64,000 bases of DNA, taken from assembly GCA_019163375.1 (NCBI GenBank), contig JAFLKK010000007.1, positions 283,813 through 347,812 on the forward strand, written 5' to 3'. Under the pieces are notes generated by a model. That model was not told the DNA's origin. It worked only from the letters and a program-made list of their open reading frames with translations, and searched no databases. The position numbers and the translations under genes were made by a program. Source of the DNA: Paludibacter sp. (GTDB taxonomy: Bacteria; Bacteroidota; Bacteroidia; Bacteroidales; Paludibacteraceae). Position 1 is the first letter of the stretch, and each line of letters starts with the position of its first letter. Shown in pieces: positions 10,225 through 18,676 of the stretch.

Positions 10225-10239
10225 GGCTTAAAAATAAAT

Positions 10240-10276
10240 CGCCCCGTTTAGCACTATTCATGCGCTAAACGGGGCG
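10240..10276. terminator. Terminator hairpin between convergent genes
   Basis: A perfect 13-bp GC-rich stem (10240-10252 with 10264-10276) surrounds an 11-base loop. The T-rich tail (TTTATTTTTAAG) is on the minus-strand side, so it best serves transcripts from the TPR-regulator cluster, but it can also close the DUF3857 transcript. Confidence 0.7.
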
Positions 10277-10688
10277 AACTATATCACAAAAGGTGAGTGG
10301 TATAATTTCTCTCTAAAAAATTTACAAGTCGCATTTTCCTTATCATGGTTTAGGTTGTGAGGACAAACGCCTTATGGGTTTCACTATCACCATACTTGAA
10401 TATACCGCTCATTCCTTTTGCTTATAAAATGCAAAAATTAAGTGCTGTGTGTTTATAGTACAATAGTAGAAAAATATTGCTACATTTTTGTGCGGCTAAA
10501 TTAGAGAATACACCTAGTCTAACCAAATTTGGGACGAAAATAGTTTGGACATCTTAAAAAATAATTCGCTGAAATTCAAGACAATACAATCGTTAATGCG
10601 ATTATTTTTGGACATTGGGTAAGTCGCCTTAAATATTTACTTAAATTGAGCCAAATCTCTACAAGGTATAAAAATAAACGAGCTACAT
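10277..10688. other. Intergenic stretch of about 410 bases without a gene
   Basis: There is no credible open frame in either direction. The noteworthy parts are a 10-bp palindrome CCAAATTTGG (10523-10532) followed by GACGAAAA, and two TTTGGACAT-like motifs nearby. The same layout recurs downstream of the fourth TPR regulator, near 16917. Confidence 0.4.
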
Positions 10689-12284
10689 TTAGATGTGGTT
10701 GGAAACACTTTCATTTAAAAATGCATCTAATTCTTTTGCACTTTTCAAATTTAATTTTTGAGCAACTCGTTGTTTCATTTTATATAAACCTTCGGTGGTC
10801 GTTTCTAATATAAGAATCCTATCTGCACTGGAAATATTCAACAGTTGAAGACAGCACCAACTAATTTCCTTGCGACTTAGAGCTGGATAGTTCGCTTGAA
10901 GTTTATCTATTATTCCATTGAATGCATGATTCATTTCACAAGTAAAAACATCCCAGTTATTTATATGCAGGCTGTTGTTGTACACTTCCTTGTCTAACTT
11001 TATTCTATCATTAGGCAATGCATGCTTGCGCGTAACTGCCTGAATCGCTTTTGAATCCTCGATTTTTTTACTTATACTTTGACTAACAAAAACCTGTTTT
11101 TTATTTAGCTCAGTTTTATATCCATCGAGCTCTTGCTTTTTAATTTTATTCCGCTTGTAGAAGAAATACGAAATAGCACCACCAAGCAAAGCAACCACAA
11201 CTAATAGCAAAATGGTTATTGCTAAACTTTGCCTTGCACCAGTGGTTTCGATAGAATTTGCATGCAAGTCTTCAATAACAGTGGCTTTCGTTTGAGACTC
11301 TAAGATACGAATGGAGTCTGTATATTGCTGGTAATTACTCATATATTTACCCATGAGTTTTATATCTCCTTTCAAGTAAGTTGTATTTACCAGTATAAGG
11401 TAACAGCCGCGTCGGGTAAAAAAGTCGGCAGGATATTTTAAGGACTTTTTTACATACAGTTCAGCAGAATCATTTCTATTTTTGTTTGCATATGCATCTG
11501 CAAGCAAAAAATACCGAGCAGCATAGCCTGTTCTTTTTGCAGGATATTGCAAGCTTATTCTCAAATAGTGTATTGCAGAATCAGGTAGGTCTGATATTAA
11601 ATAGACATTCCCAATCTCCTGATATGCACCACCAAGCAATAGTGAATCAGCAGTTTGCTGAATAACATTATGATAACACTTAAGTGCAGACTTAAATTCC
11701 TTAGCACACCTGTATGTTACTCCAATGTCCAACATTGAACAGCATACAGCATTCTTATTTTGGACTTTCTCAAAATATTTTGAGGCTAGTAAGTACTTTT
11801 CTCTTGCTTCTTTGTGCTGTTGTTGCGCAGAATATATTTTACCCATGTCGGAATACACTTCACCAAGGGTGTTGTAATCTGTTTCAATATTTAGGTTGTC
11901 CAACGCTTTTAGATATTCTGAAGTAGCCAGTTCAAATTTATTTTTGTACAGATATGTTCGCCCTTTGTACAAATAGCAACTCCCAAGCCGAATTTTATCA
12001 TCTCTCCTTGTATAGTAATCTATTGAGAAGTTCAGCAACGAAATGGGCTGCATCTGTAAACCACTAGCGTCCATCGATTTGAAAAGAAGCAGCCCATATA
12101 ATGCCCGGTTAGCATACGTGGTGTATTTTTCAGGATGTAATTGTTGCAGTATATGTAATGCTGAATCGGGGTGATCCTCTATTATTTTCTCTGCTATTCT
12201 TAGCTCATTAGGAGTCTTTGAACAACTCGTAAAGCTGAAAGTAAGTAGAGTAATAATTAGACTATATAGTGTGATGAATCTCAT
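10689..12284 (-). CDS. Transmembrane TPR regulator, copy 1
   Basis: The start at 12284 (MRFITLYS) gives 531 residues; a start three codons earlier is possible. An N-terminal export signal ends at a Cys (FTSC-SK), suggesting a lipoprotein or a signal anchor. Repeated 34-40-residue helical pairs with TPR features (YLYKGRTYLYKNKFELA, ALKCYHNV, SAIHYLRISL) follow to about residue 330. One membrane helix lies at about 353-375, then a charged helix. The C-terminal 60 residues (LSRKEISWCCLQLLN ... LYKMKQRVAQKLNL) resemble the helix-turn-helix end of Bacteroidota TPR regulators. Topology implies outside sensing and cytoplasmic DNA binding. It is the most divergent of the three adjacent copies. Confidence 0.75.
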   Translation of the reverse strand: MRFITLYSLIITLLTFSFTSCSKTPNELRIAEKIIEDHPDSALHILQQLHPEKYTTYANRALYGLLLFKSMDASGLQMQPISLLNFSIDYYTRRDDKIRLGSCYLYKGRTYLYKNKFELATSEYLKALDNLNIETDYNTLGEVYSDMGKIYSAQQQHKEAREKYLLASKYFEKVQNKNAVCCSMLDIGVTYRCAKEFKSALKCYHNVIQQTADSLLLGGAYQEIGNVYLISDLPDSAIHYLRISLQYPAKRTGYAARYFLLADAYANKNRNDSAELYVKKSLKYPADFFTRRGCYLILVNTTYLKGDIKLMGKYMSNYQQYTDSIRILESQTKATVIEDLHANSIETTGARQSLAITILLLVVVALLGGAISYFFYKRNKIKKQELDGYKTELNKKQVFVSQSISKKIEDSKAIQAVTRKHALPNDRIKLDKEVYNNSLHINNWDVFTCEMNHAFNGIIDKLQANYPALSRKEISWCCLQLLNISSADRILILETTTEGLYKMKQRVAQKLNLKSAKELDAFLNESVSNHI

Positions 12285-12336
12285 AATAAGCAATTGAAAC
12301 CTATAGTATCGAACAATCTGATACTGTCATTTTTTG

Positions 12337-12344
12337 CAAATTTA
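12337..12344 (-). promoter_or_regulatory. Candidate -7 element for TPR regulator copy 1
   Basis: On the minus strand this reads TAAATTTG, fitting TAnnTTTG. The same element and flanks occur upstream of copy 2 (14025-14032), because the upstream regions are duplicated. No clear -33 TTTG is present at the expected distance. Confidence 0.4.
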
Positions 12345-12377
12345 CAAAATATAAATCACATTAGCGATGTCGATAAA

Positions 12378-12790
12378 TTAGTTTCTACTCGCTGCTTTAT
12401 TTCTGAGGTACGTGTCCAGTTCCTTTGTACTCACCAGATTTAATTTTTGCGCAATACGTTGTTTTAGTTTGTACAATCCTTCTGTAGTGGTTTCCAGTAA
12501 TAAAACCCTGTCTACATTCGAAATATCCAACAAATGAAGGCAGCACCAACTAATTTCTTTGCGACTTAAAGCAGGGTGATCTGTATGCAGTTTGTCTACA
12601 ATATTATTGAACGCGTGATTCATTTCGGAGGAGAACACGTCCCAATTGTCAATGTGCAGTGCATTGTTATATAGCTCTTTGCTGAGTTTTAGGCGGTCGT
12701 CGGGCTGCGCGTTCCTTCTGGTTTTCGTTTGGATGGATTTCAGCTCTTCAATTTTAGTGCTTATGCTCTGACTAACAAAAACCTGCTTGC
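12378..12790. repeat. Duplicated 3' segment of TPR regulator, copy A
   Basis: About 410 bases covering the 3' end of the second regulator gene are nearly identical to 14066-14478 in the third, with only scattered single-base differences. The central part (about 12530-12750) is the longest unbroken match. The similarity continues leftwards into the intergenic spacer, which is also repeated. Confidence 0.85.
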
Positions 12791-13973
12791 TATCTAATTC
12801 CAACTTACAATTCTCAATTTGCTGTTTCCGAAGCTTGTTTCGGTGGTATAAGTACACACCAATAATCAAGATAATGAGAATCGAGGCAGTAAGTAGTAAA
12901 GTATATAGAGTAAGATTCTGTTTTACAGCAGCCGTCTCCGTCTTGCTATTGTGTTGTTTTTCAATTACTACTGCTTTAGTTTGAGATTCAATGACACGAA
13001 CCGAGTCAGTACATTCCTGATACTTACTCATGTATTTGTTCATCGTTTTCATGTCTTTTCTATTATAAGCAGCGTTCACTACTATTCGGCAACATTCTTT
13101 TTTCACGTGGAAACCCGCTGGATATTTCATGGATTTTAACGCATAGAATGAAGCAGAATCATACTGGCTGATGTTGTAAAAAACACCAGCTAAAGTATAG
13201 TATCTAATTGCAAGGCTCCCTTCTCTAATAGGGTAAGTAAATGATTGCTTGTAGTAATATAAGGAAGAGTCGTATTGATCATTTTTATAGTACGAAGTTC
13301 CTATCTCGGCGAGTGCTGTGCCAAGGGTAAACGAATCAGTGCTTAATAAATATACTTTTTTATAATATAGTCTAGCAATATTGTATTTTTTTTCTACTAC
13401 ATATGTTTGACCAATATTAAGAAACTCATTTAACACAAATTCAGGCCTTTTTGCTTTGTTGAAGATGGAGGATGCCTTTAGATACTTTTTTCGCGCTTCG
13501 ATATTCTCCTTTTGCATAAAGCTAATAGCTGCTAAATCGGAATAATTCTTCCCCAAAAGTAGATTATTAGTATTATTTGTACAGTTCTCTATGGAACTCA
13601 AAAACTCTTTTGTCGCCTTTTCATATTCTTTTTGGGAATACAGTTTTCGTCCTTTATAAAAATATGCTATTGCAAGATATTTTTCATCTTTTTGTTTTAG
13701 ATAATAATCTATCGAAAAGTTTATCAATGAATCCGGTTGTAAGGGCAAATAATTCTTATCCAGAGCTTGAAAAAGGAGGATGCCGAATAACGCCCTGCTG
13801 GCATCAGAACTATATTTTTCAGGAGGTAGTTTTTGTAAGATCTGTAATGCAGAATCAGGATGTTCCTCCATTATTTTTTCTACTATTTTTAGTTCATTAG
13901 GAGTCTTAGAACAACTCATAAAGCTGAAAGCGAGTAGGGCAATAAGTATACTATATAGTGTGATGAATCTCAT
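12378..13973 (-). CDS. Transmembrane TPR regulator, copy 2
   Basis: The frame is open from 14027, but by comparison with copy 1 the start is MRFITLYS at 13973, giving 531 residues. The N-terminal signal ends in SFMSC-SK. A TPR-rich sensor region follows to about residue 330, with repeats such as AIAYFYKGRKLYSQKEYEKA and SSLYYYKQSF. One membrane helix lies at about 353-375 and a cytoplasmic helix plus helix-turn-helix-like domain closes the protein. The last 140 residues are identical to copy 3 except for one Ser/Asn change, while the middle of the TPR region differs clearly. This is the pattern of one output module shared by two sensors. The target genes are unknown. Confidence 0.75.
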   Translation of the reverse strand: MRFITLYSILIALLAFSFMSCSKTPNELKIVEKIMEEHPDSALQILQKLPPEKYSSDASRALFGILLFQALDKNYLPLQPDSLINFSIDYYLKQKDEKYLAIAYFYKGRKLYSQKEYEKATKEFLSSIENCTNNTNNLLLGKNYSDLAAISFMQKENIEARKKYLKASSIFNKAKRPEFVLNEFLNIGQTYVVEKKYNIARLYYKKVYLLSTDSFTLGTALAEIGTSYYKNDQYDSSLYYYKQSFTYPIREGSLAIRYYTLAGVFYNISQYDSASFYALKSMKYPAGFHVKKECCRIVVNAAYNRKDMKTMNKYMSKYQECTDSVRVIESQTKAVVIEKQHNSKTETAAVKQNLTLYTLLLTASILIILIIGVYLYHRNKLRKQQIENCKLELDSKQVFVSQSISTKIEELKSIQTKTRRNAQPDDRLKLSKELYNNALHIDNWDVFSSEMNHAFNNIVDKLHTDHPALSRKEISWCCLHLLDISNVDRVLLLETTTEGLYKLKQRIAQKLNLVSTKELDTYLRNKAASRN

Positions 13974-14024
13974 AATAAGCAATAGGGACATAAAGCATCG
14001 AATAATCTGACACTGTCTTTTTTG

Positions 14025-14032
14025 CAAATTTA
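14025..14032 (-). promoter_or_regulatory. Candidate -7 element for TPR regulator copy 2
   Basis: TAAATTTG on the minus strand, in a spacer almost identical to the one upstream of copy 1. It suggests that both copies start from duplicated promoters and are likely controlled alike. Confidence 0.4.
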
Positions 14033-14065
14033 CAAAATATAATTTACATTAGCGATGTCGATAAA

Positions 14066-14478
14066 TTAGTTTCTATTCGCTGCTTTATTTCGGAGGTACG
14101 TGTCCAGTTCCTTTGTGCTCACCAGATTCAATTTTTGCGCAATACGTTGTTTTAGTTTGTACAACCCTTCCGTAGTGGTTTCCAGCAATAAAACCCTGTC
14201 TACATTCGAAATATCCAACAAATGAAGGCAGCACCAACTAATTTCTTTGCGACTTAAAGCAGGGTGATCTGTATGCAGTTTGTCTACAATATTATTGAAC
14301 GCGTGATTCATTTCGGAGGAGAACACGTCCCAATTGTCAATGTGCAGTGCATTGTTATATAGCTCTTTGCTGAGTTTTAGGCGGTCGTCGGGCTGCGCGT
14401 TCCTTCTGGTTTTCGTTTGGATGGATTTCAACTCTTCTATTTTAGTGCTTATGCTCTGACTAACAAAAACCTGTTTGC
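14066..14478. repeat. Duplicated 3' segment of TPR regulator, copy B
   Basis: This is the partner of 12378-12790. The differences seen (for example near 14093, 14129, 14170 and 14432) are mostly at synonymous positions, so the encoded output domains stay identical. It is the result of a recent duplication or of gene conversion. Confidence 0.85.
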
Positions 14479-15658
14479 TGTCTAATTCCTGCTTGTAATT
14501 CTCAATTTGCTGTTTCCTAAGTCTGCTCCGGTGGTATAAGTAGACACCAATAATCAAGAAAATCAGAATTGAGACTGTTAGGAGTAAAGTATATAGTCTA
14601 AGATTCTGTTTTGTATTTGTAAATTCTATTTTATTATTGTGTTGTTGTTCTATGACTGTTGATTTAGTTTGAGACTCAATACTACGGATAGAATCAGTAT
14701 ATTCCTGATACTTGTTAATGTATTTTTTCATGAGTTTAGCGTCTCCAGTATTATAAGTCGCGTTTGCAATTACTCGACAGCATTCTCTGTTTATATATAC
14801 GTTGCCTCCTGTACAATTCAATGATTTCATTGCATAAATGGTGGCTGAGTCAAACTTATCTATGTCGAAGAATACATTCGCTAAAGAACTATACCTGAGA
14901 GAAAGGTTATTATCCCTAGAAGGGTATGTCAACGATTTCTTGTAATAGTATAATGTTGAGTCAAATTGTTTGTTGTTGTAGTACGTGGCTCCAATCTCGT
15001 TTAAAGCTATACCAATTGTGAACGGGTCTTTGCTTAAGGAATATACTTTTCTAAAGTAGGATCTCGCAGTAATATATTTATTTTCAAATAGATACGAAAT
15101 TCCAGTAGTTATTAATGTCAAATATACAAATTCTGTTTTTCCCGCTTTTAGATAAATTGAGGTTGCCAATTGACTCTTTCTTCTCCCCTCTTTATAATTC
15201 CTTTGCTTAAGACATATAGTTGCTAAGTCTTCATAATTTTTACCTAAGAGCAGAAAGTCAGAATTTGGATTACAGTTATCTATCGATTTGTAAAATTCTG
15301 CTGAGGCTTTCTCATACTTCATTTCATTTTTGAGTTTTCTCCCCTTGTAAAAAAAGGCTATTGCAAGGTTTGATTTATCCTTTTGCCTCAGATAATAGTC
15401 AATTGAAAAGTTTATCAATGAATCCGGTTGCAAAGGCATATAATTTTTATCCAGAGCTTGAAACAGGAGGATGCCGTATAATGCCCTATTGGCATCAGAA
15501 CTATATTTTTCAGGAGGTAATTTTTGAAGGATGTGCAATGCGGTATCGGGATGCTCTTCCATTATTTGTTCTACTCTTTTTAGCTCATCGGGGATATAGG
15601 AGCAACTTACGAATAAAACACATAGAACCAGAAAAAGAATACGTGGAGGTGTGATCAT
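14066..15658 (-). CDS. Transmembrane TPR regulator, copy 3
   Basis: This 530-residue product starts MITPPRILFLVL, and a signal ends at FVSC-SY, a possible lipidation Cys. The layout matches its neighbours: TPR-like repeats to about residue 330, a membrane helix at about 352-374 (LYTLLLTVSILIFLIIGVYL), a charged helix, then a helix-turn-helix-like end with the cluster-wide motif SRKEISWCCL. The first 110 residues are also very close to copy 2 (shared KLPPEKYSSDA and QPDSLINFSIDYYL), whereas residues about 120-340 diverge. A -7-like TACTTTTG lies at 15730-15737. Regulation of nearby or distant surface genes is inference. Confidence 0.75.
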   Translation of the reverse strand: MITPPRILFLVLCVLFVSCSYIPDELKRVEQIMEEHPDTALHILQKLPPEKYSSDANRALYGILLFQALDKNYMPLQPDSLINFSIDYYLRQKDKSNLAIAFFYKGRKLKNEMKYEKASAEFYKSIDNCNPNSDFLLLGKNYEDLATICLKQRNYKEGRRKSQLATSIYLKAGKTEFVYLTLITTGISYLFENKYITARSYFRKVYSLSKDPFTIGIALNEIGATYYNNKQFDSTLYYYKKSLTYPSRDNNLSLRYSSLANVFFDIDKFDSATIYAMKSLNCTGGNVYINRECCRVIANATYNTGDAKLMKKYINKYQEYTDSIRSIESQTKSTVIEQQHNNKIEFTNTKQNLRLYTLLLTVSILIFLIIGVYLYHRSRLRKQQIENYKQELDSKQVFVSQSISTKIEELKSIQTKTRRNAQPDDRLKLSKELYNNALHIDNWDVFSSEMNHAFNNIVDKLHTDHPALSRKEISWCCLHLLDISNVDRVLLLETTTEGLYKLKQRIAQKLNLVSTKELDTYLRNKAANRN

Positions 15659-15729
15659 AACTTTGTACTTGCATATGGCAACCCCGGTTTCTTACTGTAG
15701 ATTAAGAGACGCCAAAGTTTGCCTTAATG

Positions 15730-15737
15730 CAAAAGTA
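15730..15737 (-). promoter_or_regulatory. Candidate -7 element for TPR regulator copy 3
   Basis: TACTTTTG on the minus strand, 72 bases upstream of the start codon. This upstream region is not the duplicated one seen before copies 1 and 2. Confidence 0.45.
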
Positions 15738-15835
15738 CAAATTTATTTTAAAAAAACGATTGGAAAGATAAAGGTACGTTAGCTGATCGTACAATCAGTA
15801 AAAATTTAATGCGATAAAATAGTTGAAAATACAAT

Positions 15836-16345
15836 TTAGGCCTTGCAAAGCCACGCTCTAAATGCGACTCCACATGCAGGAATGTCATTTTTAGGGTTAC
15901 GACCTATCGGCTTAAAATTCTCATAGCCTTGAACTACTTGTTCGGCCGATTTCTCGTTTTGCGGAGCTGCTTTTTCTCCAAGAATTTCCACCGTTGTTTC
16001 AAACATGCCCTGTCTAAGCTCGTTGCTCGGAATAATCGATACATTTACCGAGTTTACGTTTGGGTTCCAGGTTTTGTTGTACAACTGCCCTTTGATAATC
16101 GGATACATGGATACCAAGCCGGTATCTACTTTGTTACCGTTAAAAACAAGATCAGATGTTTTTTTGTTGAAAGTTGTAATTACCTTCGTAGCAAAATCGT
16201 GGTCAATTTCAAGACCCTCTTTTATCATTTCATTAATAATGTCCGACAAATATAGATTTTTGTTTATAGTAACTTCTGCACTATATTCGTTTGTGTTGTA
16301 TGACTGATTGTTTTTTGTCAGCCAGGCCTTTAATATTTTTATCAT
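15836..16345 (-). CDS. HU-like DNA-binding domain protein
   Basis: This 169-residue protein resembles the N-terminal HU/IHF-like domain of the Bacteroidota DNA-binding family often annotated with DUF4469. Matching parts are IKAWLTKN near the start, LSDIINEMIKEGLEIDHDFATKVITTF (helices), the turn NGNKVDTGLVSMYPIIKGQLYN, and a beta segment ending in VEILGEKAAP. The Ig-like C-terminal domain of longer relatives is absent; a short tail ending RAWLCKA follows instead. It lies between a regulator gene and the DUF3244 gene on the same strand. Relatives may act as nucleoid or surface-locus proteins; the role here is unknown. Confidence 0.65.
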   Translation of the reverse strand: MIKILKAWLTKNNQSYNTNEYSAEVTINKNLYLSDIINEMIKEGLEIDHDFATKVITTFNKKTSDLVFNGNKVDTGLVSMYPIIKGQLYNKTWNPNVNSVNVSIIPSNELRQGMFETTVEILGEKAAPQNEKSAEQVVQGYENFKPIGRNPKNDIPACGVAFRAWLCKA

Positions 16346-16395
16346 ACCCTAAAGTGTTTTGAAAGTTTCTATTTATTGATTGTCGTTGCTTTAAT

Positions 16396-16424
16396 AACGA
16401 GGCGGTAGTATAGCCCGCCTCGTT
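16396..16424. terminator. Hairpin terminator after the DUF3244 gene
   Basis: A 10-bp GC-rich stem (AACGAGGCGG at 16396-16405 with CCGCCTCGTT at 16415-16424) lies 12 bases beyond the DUF3244 stop. The richer T-tract is on the plus-strand side, so termination strength for the minus strand is uncertain. Confidence 0.6.
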
Positions 16425-16435
16425 TTAAGTTTTTC

Positions 16436-16822
16436 TTATAGTTCGAATTCTCCTACTAAGTTGGTTGAACCATAGCTGATTTTTAAAGTGTAAACGCCAC
16501 CATCGAAATTTTGAGTGTCGATATACGCATCTAGTGTTGTAAAGGTGTCAACTGTTTCCAGATAAACTACTTCGCCGTTTTCATTTTCTACTGTTACAAG
16601 TGCAGTACCTACGGGGTACAAAAAGTTTAGAGTGACGTCAGTTTCATTTTGTGTTACATTAAGGGCGATGCTAACTGGTGCTCTTGTTCCTGTACTAGGG
16701 ATATTGTAGTCGCTTGGATCTTCACTTTTTATAGGCACATCTCTTGCAGAAGTACTTTGAAAAGGAAGAGTAAATAGCAGTAGCATAAGAATGCTAAAAA
16801 GGGGTAAATTAATTTTTTTCAT
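16436..16822 (-). CDS. DUF3244 secreted protein
   Basis: I place the start at 16822 (MKKINLPLFS), giving 128 residues with a signal peptide that ends near SARDVPIK; the open frame extends 21 codons further without a signal. The mature part is a small beta-sandwich-like domain typical of DUF3244. Its core (SIALNVTQNETDVTLNF, TVENENGEVVYLETVD, GGVYTLKISYG) matches the family pattern of a short secreted domain ending in a G-x-Y-T-L strand. It is predicted to be periplasmic or extracellular. It lies between TPR regulator 4 and the HU-like gene. In Bacteroidales such genes are, as I recall, found near TPR regulators; a ligand role is speculation. Confidence 0.75.
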   Translation of the reverse strand: MKKINLPLFSILMLLLFTLPFQSTSARDVPIKSEDPSDYNIPSTGTRAPVSIALNVTQNETDVTLNFLYPVGTALVTVENENGEVVYLETVDTFTTLDAYIDTQNFDGGVYTLKISYGSTNLVGEFEL

Positions 16823-16915
16823 ACACATTGCGTTTTTGTAAAGTGATACTTGTAGTTTTATAAATGTAAAAGGGTGTTCTTTCAAGGTGCTAAGTTATAC
16901 ATAGCATACAATAGT

Positions 16916-17023
16916 TCCAAATATTTGGACGAAATAAAGTAGGACAAGCCATTTTGCATTTGTCTTATTTTCAGGGAGATACGACTGGACAAGCGGAAAA
17001 AATCAGGACAAGCAAAAATGGAC
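16916..17023 (+). repeat. Palindrome and direct GGACAAGC repeats
   Basis: A 14-bp palindrome TCCAAATATTTGGA (16916-16929) is followed by ACGAAA. Three exact copies of GGACAAGC then follow at 16942, 16987 and 17006, and a further GGAC at 17020. The block lies downstream of TPR regulator 4 and upstream of the DUF3244 gene, where it could be an operator array. Confidence 0.5.
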
Positions 17024-17089
17024 CGAAAATAAGGGGGTAAAAGTGGAGGGATAAAACCAGGAAATTGAAGTAAAGCAGTTGAGAAATGA

Positions 17090-18676
17090 TTATTTAGACA
17101 CCGATCTTTCCTTTAAGAGTTGATTTAACTCGAGTGTTGTTTTAAGTTTCATTTTCTGAGCCAGACGCTGTTTTAATTTGTACAAACTTTCAGGTTTGCA
17201 ATCCAACACCAACGCCATATCGCCACTATGAATATTAAGCAAATAAAGACAGCACCAGGTTATTTCTTTGTGTGTAATATCAGGGTAGGTTTTCTCTAAA
17301 AAGCTTACCGTATTGTTGAAGGTGCGATTCATGCTTTCGCTAAAAACTTTCCAGTCGTTGAGATGCAGGCAGACGTTGTACACTTCTTTGTCCATAGCCT
17401 CCCGTTTCGCCAGCGAAGACTTACGGTACTCCTCCATATGTAACGACTTAGATTCCTCAATTTTTTGGATAAAATTGTTTTTCAAATTCAATTGTTTCTC
17501 TGTCAATTGTAATTCTACTTCTACTAATTGTTTTTCTTTCCCTTTATTTCGTTGCCTTAAACGAAAAAGGATAAACAGGCTTATAACAATAATAAAAGGT
17601 ATCAACCAGCCGAGAACAATAAGGTATTGCTTTGTTTTTCCTGCAGTTTGCGAAGTCTCATGTATGTTTTCTAGAACAGTAGTTTTGGTTTGAATGTCTA
17701 TTTTCCGAACAGAGTCGGTGCATGCCTGATATTTGCTCATATAAAATGCCATTTGCTTAAAATCGCCCTGAGAATATTTTGAGTTCGCTAATATTCTATA
17801 GCATGCTTTTTGAGTGAAGAAACTTGATGGGTGTTTTAACGATATGTTAGCATAGTGTATTGCTGAATCTAATTTAGAAACTAAGAAAAACAATTCAGAT
17901 AGATTGCAACATCTTATTGCATAATTGAATTCTTTGCAAGGAAACTTTAAACTTTTACGATAGTAAATTTCAGCAGAATCTAATTGTCTTGTGTATTGAT
18001 AATTAGTACCAATTTCCTGATATGCTATTCCTAATAAGATTGAATCACGACTAATTGAGACTGCTTTTCTATAATATTGCAAAGCCATTTTATAATTTTT
18101 CTCACAACGATAGGTTACGCCAATGTCAATAATTCTAAAAGATGCATCAGCTGTTTTTCCTATTTGATTTAAACAATTAACCGCAAGTTGGTGCTTTTCT
18201 CTGGCTTTTACATAATCTTTTTGAATAGAGCAGATATATCCCATGTCACCATATATTTTCCCCATCAAGGCATAATCTTTTTTATCCTGACAATTGTCTA
18301 AGGCTTTCAAATACATTTCGGTAGCCTCATCGTATTGTTGAGCATACTTGTACATGCGCCCTTTGTAAAAATAGCACCTCGCTAATCGAACTTTGTCTTT
18401 TTTGCCTTGGTAATAGTCTAACGAAAAATTTATAGCTGAATCTGGCTGAAGGGGTAAATATTTTTTATCCAATGCTTCGAAGAGGAGAAGACCATATAAG
18501 GCCTGATCGGCACTGGATAGTGATTGGTTGGGTTTTATTTGTCGCAAGAGATGTAGAGCAGAATCGGGTGAGGTCTCCATCAGTTGCTCTGCAGTCTTCA
18601 TTTTGTTCGGGAGCAACGAACAACCGACAAAGAGTAAAAAGATGTATGGAATAAATATGCGATATTTGAACTGCAT
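17090..18676 (-). CDS. Transmembrane TPR regulator, copy 4
   Basis: I take the start at 18676 (MQFKYRIF), giving 528 residues with a signal that ends at LLFVGC-SLLP, a good lipoprotein-type site; the frame opens 12 codons earlier without a signal. TPR-like repeats run to about residue 330 (RLARCYFYKGRMYKYAQQYDEA, MALQYYRKAV, SAEIYYRKSL). One membrane helix lies at about 351-372. The cytoplasmic tail ends in HKEITWCCLYLLN and LYKLKQRLAQKMKL, the same helix-turn-helix-like pattern as the other three. It is more divergent from them than they are from each other. Its nearest downstream gene is the DUF3244 gene, making that the first candidate target. Confidence 0.75.
   Translation of the reverse strand: MQFKYRIFIPYIFLLFVGCSLLPNKMKTAEQLMETSPDSALHLLRQIKPNQSLSSADQALYGLLLFEALDKKYLPLQPDSAINFSLDYYQGKKDKVRLARCYFYKGRMYKYAQQYDEATEMYLKALDNCQDKKDYALMGKIYGDMGYICSIQKDYVKAREKHQLAVNCLNQIGKTADASFRIIDIGVTYRCEKNYKMALQYYRKAVSISRDSILLGIAYQEIGTNYQYTRQLDSAEIYYRKSLKFPCKEFNYAIRCCNLSELFFLVSKLDSAIHYANISLKHPSSFFTQKACYRILANSKYSQGDFKQMAFYMSKYQACTDSVRKIDIQTKTTVLENIHETSQTAGKTKQYLIVLGWLIPFIIVISLFILFRLRQRNKGKEKQLVEVELQLTEKQLNLKNNFIQKIEESKSLHMEEYRKSSLAKREAMDKEVYNVCLHLNDWKVFSESMNRTFNNTVSFLEKTYPDITHKEITWCCLYLLNIHSGDMALVLDCKPESLYKLKQRLAQKMKLKTTLELNQLLKERSVSK

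Follow-up and report, generated by a model that had tools for sequence, protein, structure and literature searches.

Predicted membrane TPR regulators paired with exported DUF3244 proteins at a Paludibacter locus, with candidate direct-repeat operators and a candidate structured RNA element

Gene organization and mosaic structure of the regulators

A stretch of 64,000 nucleotides from a Paludibacter sp. genome (GenBank assembly GCA_019163375.1, contig JAFLKK010000007.1; hereafter, the window) harbors four minus-strand paralogous genes for tetratricopeptide repeat (TPR) proteins, which are probably transcriptional regulators, together with a gene for an exported protein of the DUF3244 family, direct-repeat boxes that are candidate operators, and a putative structured RNA element. 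Inspection of open reading frames agreed in coordinates and strand with an earlier note on this DNA, which had described four paralogues of 528-531 residues. Copies 1, 2, 3 and 4 (positions 10689..12284, 12378..13973, 14066..15658 and 17090..18676, all on the minus strand; the longest frame of copy 4 reaches 18712, its start being placed at MQFKYR) encode, from their Met starts, proteins of 531, 531, 530 and 528 amino acid residues, and copies 2, 3 and 4 share 52, 48 and 42% identity with copy 1, respectively. The further description of an export signal with Cys, a TPR region, a single membrane helix and a conserved tail applies to all four: the Cys of the export signal is found at residue 21, 21, 19 and 19 of copies 1-4 (copy 3 has a further Cys at 13), Pfam TPR families match every copy, each has a single hydrophobic window starting near residue 353-357, in a count that begins one or two codons before the Met for copies 2 and 4, and the tail motif reads KEISWCCL in copies 1-3 and KEITWCCL in copy 4. 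Between copies 3 and 4, again as described, lie the DUF3244 gene and a gene for an HU-like protein, both recognized by Pfam.

The copies had also been called mosaic, and windowed DNA identity indeed differs along copies 1-3. Between copies 2 and 3, identity is 96-100% in windows beginning at residue 401 or later, that is, in the tail, with a longest exact run of 244 bp, and only 58-68% in windows starting at residues 101-261, which cover most of the TPR part, while copies 1 and 2 have a common 5' end (87% DNA identity). Read from the sequences, the pattern of copies 2 and 3 would be that of gene conversion, with sensors diverging on a common tail. Across relatives, the tails fall into two types, DUF3244-linked (60% identity among themselves, n=7) and tandem (61%, n=7), with 49% between types, and the TPR parts of tandem copies are 41% alike. 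The proposal that different sensors share one output thus gains support, copies 1-3 having one tail type and diverging TPR parts.

The regulator family is patchily distributed, being found at E≤1e-30 in at least 7 of 119 genomes of the order and in at least 12 of 61 in Paludibacter's own family. A seventh, distant paralogue lies elsewhere in the same genome (contig C1:36506-38107, E 1.6e-39), with no DUF3244 or HU match in the 14-kb stretch around it (locus L242). At another locus (L233, G214:C1:429544-436449), four tandem regulators precede one DUF3244 gene, perhaps through independent expansion, and 14 plasmid records (e.g., NZ_OY725766.1), 11 of them from Parabacteroides or Phocaeicola, contain relatives of copy 4 with <60% identity.

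Fold of the C-terminal tail

The tail had been described as helix-turn-helix-like, with structure prediction named as the check. The AlphaFold model of copy 4 (pLDDT 93.9) places at its C-terminus a four-helix DNA-binding fold as found in LuxR/GerE-type regulators, and we regard the tail as a predicted helix-turn-helix (HTH) of this type. The closest fold group comprises the LuxR/NarL/GerE DNA-binding domains (DosR, GerE, EvgA); unlike those proteins, the regulators described here have no response-regulator domain and are not recognized by Pfam GerE at E≤1. The HTH is visible at the structure level only, as no Pfam HTH model, GerE (PF00196) included, matches any of the four tails at E≤1, and the Foldseek E-values of the tail matches are 0.30 or worse.

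Pairing of DUF3244 genes with regulators

The DUF3244 gene (16436..16828, minus strand) encodes a protein of about 130 amino acids with an export signal, matching PF11589 with an E-value of 2.2e-11 and 44.0 bits, above the curated cut-off of 25 bits; its relatives 3sd2 and 4g5a have been solved as domains. A protein search with this sequence returned 81 relatives, none informatively named. A weak Por_Secre_tail match (E 4e-4, below cut-off) was also observed, as if the protein were a free-standing relative of the C-terminal sorting domain of the type IX secretion system (T9SS).

The co-occurrence search suggested in the earlier note confirmed that DUF3244 is linked to such regulators elsewhere, both in the same genome and in Bacteroidaceae-like genomes. 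All three DUF3244 genes of the Paludibacter genome lie 3' of a member of this regulator family on the same strand. In 65 genomes of one family (Bacteroidaceae-like, the family name being inferred), 82 DUF3244 matches were obtained at E≤1e-6, flanks included, and 75 of these are preceded by a same-strand regulator, mostly within 331 bp; a few of the pairs are split or further apart (L157, L162, L186, L196, L218). Among the seven without an upstream regulator, four (L182, L201, L220, L225) have just 12-1250 bp of upstream contig, leaving L176, L188 and L214 as true exceptions. Counted per genome, DUF3244 is present in 37 of the 65: 36 genomes contain both genes, 10 the TPR gene only, 18 neither, and a single one (G157) DUF3244 only, this genome having a TPR match at E 9e-22, just under the cut-off applied. 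In other families of the order, six examined loci carry a DUF3244 that a second query (A3) also recognizes, four of them behind a same-strand regulator, one divergent and one at a contig start; five more loci with a short-frame Pfam DUF3244 had no match to this query or to the regulator. Pfam DUF3244 alone proved a poor order-wide marker: most of the listed matches belong to long open frames, which is what T9SS-type tails would produce, and we therefore state no rate for the order as a whole. Viewed from the regulators, 70 of 123 matches have a DUF3244 match within 2 kb and 53 do not. Twenty of these 53 were examined: two do carry DUF3244 according to an 85-sequence model, and the first downstream gene encodes a hydrophobic N-terminus in 14 (by a crude test; the 14 include both DUF3244 genes and one transposase-like gene).

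Candidate operators

Between copy 4 and the DUF3244 gene, three TTGTCC direct repeats (minus strand, from 17011, 16992 and 16947 within 16940..17012; spacings of 19 and 45, 64 between the outer ones) form a putative operator. They adjoin a promoter-like block, TTTGG ... TATAACTTAG, just 3' of the last box (16890..16921, minus strand), which could be aligned in 10 loci and which we take to resemble the Bacteroidota promoter consensus. A second putative operator, recognized from its sequence pattern, is a TGTCCAAA repeat with copies 63 bp apart, 3' of copy 1 (10546..10614, minus strand). The genes reported in the earlier note stand, while the operator boxes and the RNA element were overlooked in it; its stretch stops at 10689 and so does not reach the promoter and the RNA element that lie 3' of copy 1 (10290-10614).

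At least two TTGTCC were found in 16 of 93 DUF3244 upstream regions, versus 0 of 266 other genes of those loci and 0 of 72 regulator genes. A repeated identical 5-mer of the form TG[TC][CG][CA] occurs in 54 of 97 DUF3244 upstream regions, compared with 8 of 97 for the reverse complement, 6 for reversed and, on average, 6.5 for shuffled sequences; the other 43 of the 97 have no such repeat. The boxes of the 54 loci belong to the classes TGTCC (27), TGTCA (12), TGTGA (10) and others (5). Their spacings cluster at 10-12, 19-23, 43-45, 63-65 and 77 bp, and thus near whole helix turns, with a best period of 11.0 on a trimmed spacing list, for which none of 2000 random sets was as good (32 of 2000 when only spacings ≥18 were kept). 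When the best repeat was sought irrespective of box class, just 22 of 97 loci reached significance (≤1/40 shuffles), the window (7/40) not being among them. A wide regulon in the same genome was rejected, the pattern TTGTCCN{55,61}TTGTCC occurring at 3 places versus 5 in the reversed control. A looser box-pair pattern occurs at 4 places versus 0 in the control, namely the promoter of the DUF3244 gene, the second putative operator behind copy 1, a site on contig C11 (L249) and one on contig C1 (L246) without a clear target; at the latter (C1:140247), a TGTCC pair of identical spacing lies upstream of short non-coding-looking repeats and a gene of 236 amino acids.

Co-variation of sensor, tail, DUF3244 and boxes

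Like the gene pairing, fold, boxes and RNA stem, the co-variation of boxes with the HTH and of DUF3244 with the sensor was computed. Among 49 loci (818 pairs with TPR parts <30% identical), those with the same box class have more similar HTH sequences (area under the curve [AUC] 0.651, reached by 0 of 500 label permutations), and no such effect was obtained in these loci for the TPR part (AUC 0.411) or the middle part (0.504). Conversely, when the other parts are controlled for, DUF3244 identity tracks that of the TPR part (partial correlation 0.369, 0/300 permutations) and also that of the middle part of the regulator (0.209, 0/300), and it does not track that of the HTH (0.008, 143/300). In equal windows of 70 residues, the strongest correlation with DUF3244 is seen at residues 80-149 (0.50) and the weakest at 350-419 (0.25); the value rises a second time at 377-446 (0.38) and amounts to 0.28 at the HTH, while the box AUC is highest at the HTH (0.69) and next highest at 350-419 (0.62). 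This is what a sensor meeting DUF3244 and a tail meeting the boxes would leave, and the DUF3244-TPR component lends support to the earlier suggestion that the secreted protein may be a ligand or target.

Candidate structured RNA element behind the tandem copies

Downstream of the second putative operator lies a structured RNA element (10290..10411, minus strand; 90.4 bits with model R1, in whose training set it is included; fold z-score -0.90), followed by a G+C-rich terminator-like hairpin recognized by eye (10240..10276, minus strand). L016, L227 and L230 likewise have a box pair similar to TGTCCAAA on the 3' side of their last tandem copy, and non-coding DNA follows in each case. Model R1 was built from six sequences and, over 96 sequence sources, returned the training set, reverse-strand echoes and one weak extra match, 22 nt 3' of a DUF3244 gene (L015, E 0.015), others at E≥0.4 being taken as chance. 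With stricter filters, 150 genomes of the family yielded 13 places in 5 genomes, 11 of them beside a regulator or DUF3244 gene; all 5 genomes belong to the genus of the window, which was represented in the search by at least 13 members. Five of the 13 places are in the training set, and of the 8 others 6 adjoin a regulator or DUF3244 gene (L276 on the other strand), L274 and L281 being the places with neither within 1.5 kb. In one genome (G325) the order is regulator-RNA-regulator-RNA (L278, L280).

In an alignment of 14 sequences, 91.4% of stem cells pair and both partners vary in 11 of 15 pairs; 0 of 500 shuffles reach the covariation score, the alignment having been fitted to the stem and related rows being able to beat shuffles. 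Fold z-scores of the 14 copies range from -0.90 (the window, the weakest) and -1.66 (L279) down to -6.41 (L013), and the loop motif AGTGAA is kept in 13 of 14. A second inner helix, seen by eye, was discarded, being not clearly longer than in shuffled sequences (8.1 vs 7.4 bp). No Rfam 15 family matched positions 10225-10700 at E≤1 or the whole window at the gathering cut-off.

Proposed mechanism and alternative explanations

We favor, with a probability of about 60%, the interpretation that these proteins are one-component regulators in the membrane, which sense a cognate exported protein and drive its gene together with local cargo or RNA; the locus may, as had been proposed, be an envelope sensing system. 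The export signal, Cys and single membrane helix suggest an exported TPR superhelix in the periplasm, with the helix running into a coil and then into a cytoplasmic LuxR/GerE-type DNA-binding tail. Copy 4 would control the neighboring DUF3244 promoter via the direct-repeat boxes, and its TPR domain would recognize the exported DUF3244 protein, closing a loop in which DUF3244 may be a ligand or a feedback partner holding the sensor in one state, with either sign. Copies 1-3, as diverging sensors with a shared tail type, would have one additional target, a promoter 3' of copy 1 that would yield a structured RNA instead of a protein, and in Bacteroidaceae-like genomes the driven cargo would also include peptide-natural-product clusters. 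Topology, binding, activation, the ligand role and transcription of the RNA are the steps that we infer. The relatedness of the sequences limits the strength of the co-variation result.

DUF3244 might instead be cargo only, namely the commonest first gene of the operon, encoding a surface or secreted effector, while the TPR part senses envelope state or another exported product. We consider this somewhat unlikely, with a real chance of being correct: the 53 regulators without a DUF3244 match speak for it, as do the 12 of 20 examined loci with another first gene encoding a hydrophobic N-terminus (one being transposase-like, by the same crude test), the repeated boxes kept at 9 of these 20, the frequent export of cargo behind DUF3244 and, in the available part of the source, the assignment of BT_3441 to a putative operon that also encodes lectin-like and MACPF proteins (PMC2954219), but DUF3244 follows the TPR part of its neighbor more than the tail, with the peak at residues 80-149. 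That the boxes are bound by another factor, the TPR proteins being membrane scaffolds with a decayed HTH, is very improbable in our view, even given the missing Pfam HTH matches and the Foldseek E-values of the tails. The RNA element, in turn, could be inverted-repeat DNA, such as a small mobile element or an attenuator hairpin, accumulating at these loci. Its domination by one long stem, the two copies of 13 away from any regulator or DUF3244 gene, the undistinguished inner helix and the lack of an Rfam match are compatible with this. We nevertheless hold it doubtful, since both-sided changes at 11 of 15 stem pairs indicate that the ends are not one terminal repeat, the AGTGAA loop is retained, and the same kind of putative operator precedes the element in the window and three relatives.

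New here are the DUF3244 genes' own promoter regions with TGTCC-like direct repeats, the co-variation, and the structured RNA behind tandem copies. With receptor, partner and operator paired, DUF3244 function becomes directly testable; the regulator pairs give a handle on the switching of peptide natural-product clusters in commensals, the system would supply insulated switch pairs, and the RNA element opens a new subject for functional work.

Relation to known systems

In the RRNPP quorum-sensing pairs Rap/Phr, PlcR/PapR and NprR/NprX, several pairs occur per genome. The present loci resemble them in that a TPR receptor gene stands directly beside the gene of a small exported partner, with several pairs per genome; such adjacency was found for copy 4 and for the 75 of 82 DUF3244 genes, copies 1-3 being without a partner. 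Rap structures are also among the structural matches to the full regulator model. RRNPP receptors, according to the available part of PMC10075063, are intracellular and of 250-500 amino acids, whereas the regulators described here have 528-531, a sensor predicted to be exported and membrane-anchored, and a LuxR-type HTH at the C-terminus, with what is probably a folded Ig-like domain as partner. Membership in RRNPP was rejected on the grounds of receptor size and location, despite the similar mode of working. A Gram-negative counterpart of receptor-pheromone systems is a speculative extension that we think unlikely: Ig-like DUF3244 proteins would be specific signals for membrane TPR receptors with LuxR-type tails, forming several insulated pairs per genome, each with its specificity encoded at two levels (sensor-signal and HTH-box), with two interchangeable outputs (signal protein or a structured RNA not described before), and gating peptide natural-product clusters and other exported products in Bacteroidaceae.

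The closest described pair is BT_3442 (TPR) and BT_3441 (DUF3244) of Bacteroides thetaiotaomicron; the available excerpts of PMC2954219 place them in one putative operon, report an Ig-like fold in 3d33, a homologue of BT_3441, and treat BT_3442 only as a TPR protein possibly binding partners, with transport, not regulation, being proposed. All four copies match NF053779 (BT3442_fam; E 3.6e-17 to 4.7e-29), and the DUF3244 of the window matches NF053775 (BT3441_fam; E 1.2e-4), but with 62.3-101.5 bits versus a cut-off of 940 and 22.4 versus 210, respectively, they differ from these equivalogs. Copies 1 and 4 show weak similarity in the TPR region to FimS of Porphyromonas (NF053520; E 4.4e-8 and 9.7e-8), which is named a histidine kinase, whereas the regulators here have a DNA-binding-type tail instead. 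TPR genes in two Bacteroidales RiPP (ribosomally synthesized and post-translationally modified peptide) clusters, BGC2 and 9, have been suggested to be regulatory in the available part of PMC10352776; DUF3244 occurs nowhere in the text of that paper, and its available part gives no operator sites. DUF3244 genes are listed in iron data, as far as the available part of PMC10434189 goes. In the literature searched, which did not cover subscription papers, neither a role for DUF3244 nor a description of the regulator-DUF3244 pair as a signalling system was found.

HU-like gene and other cargo

The HU-like gene (15836..16345, minus strand) encodes a PF14848 protein (HU-DNA_bdg; E 3e-28, 98.8 bits, above the curated cut-off of 30; solved relative 4fmr, E 8.5e-12) with a conserved C-terminal ACGxAFRxWL, a motif named here, which is invariant after the HU domain in five HU-like sequences (the window and L014-L017). 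A hairpin recognized by eye separates it from the DUF3244 gene (16397..16423, minus strand). The window and all 6 close relatives examined share the order TPR-DUF3244-HU; the genome's two remaining TPR-DUF3244 pairs lack an HU gene, and an HU-type match lies downstream in only 7 of the 82 Bacteroidaceae-like DUF3244 loci. A general link of HU-like genes to the regulators, as implied earlier, is not supported, and the gene was rejected as a core part of the system, not being kept beyond the locus and its close relatives.

A Pfam scan of 75 first genes behind DUF3244 (≥100 amino acids) revealed HU-DNA_bdg in 7 (five from close relatives of the window), S74 and outer membrane protein (OMP) barrels in 5 each, and DUF4848, DUF4831 and C39 peptidase in 4 each; such variety led us to reject cargo as a defining feature. 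Ten of the 82 loci (L079, L149, L150, L153, L164, L165, L169, L173, L174, L187) head RiPP-like clusters, in this resembling the two published clusters, as judged from radical SAM, LanC-like, glycosyltransferase or C39/VKOR genes, by Pfam on the proteins of five loci and by similarity clusters and by eye for the others. In seven of them (L149, L164, L165, L169, L173, L174, L187), short GG-leader-like Cys/Gly-rich open reading frames were seen by eye. Finally, at L269 (3710-5017, minus strand) the gene behind a regulator lacking DUF3244 encodes an exported, thiol-cytolysin-like protein (Pfam E 3e-13).

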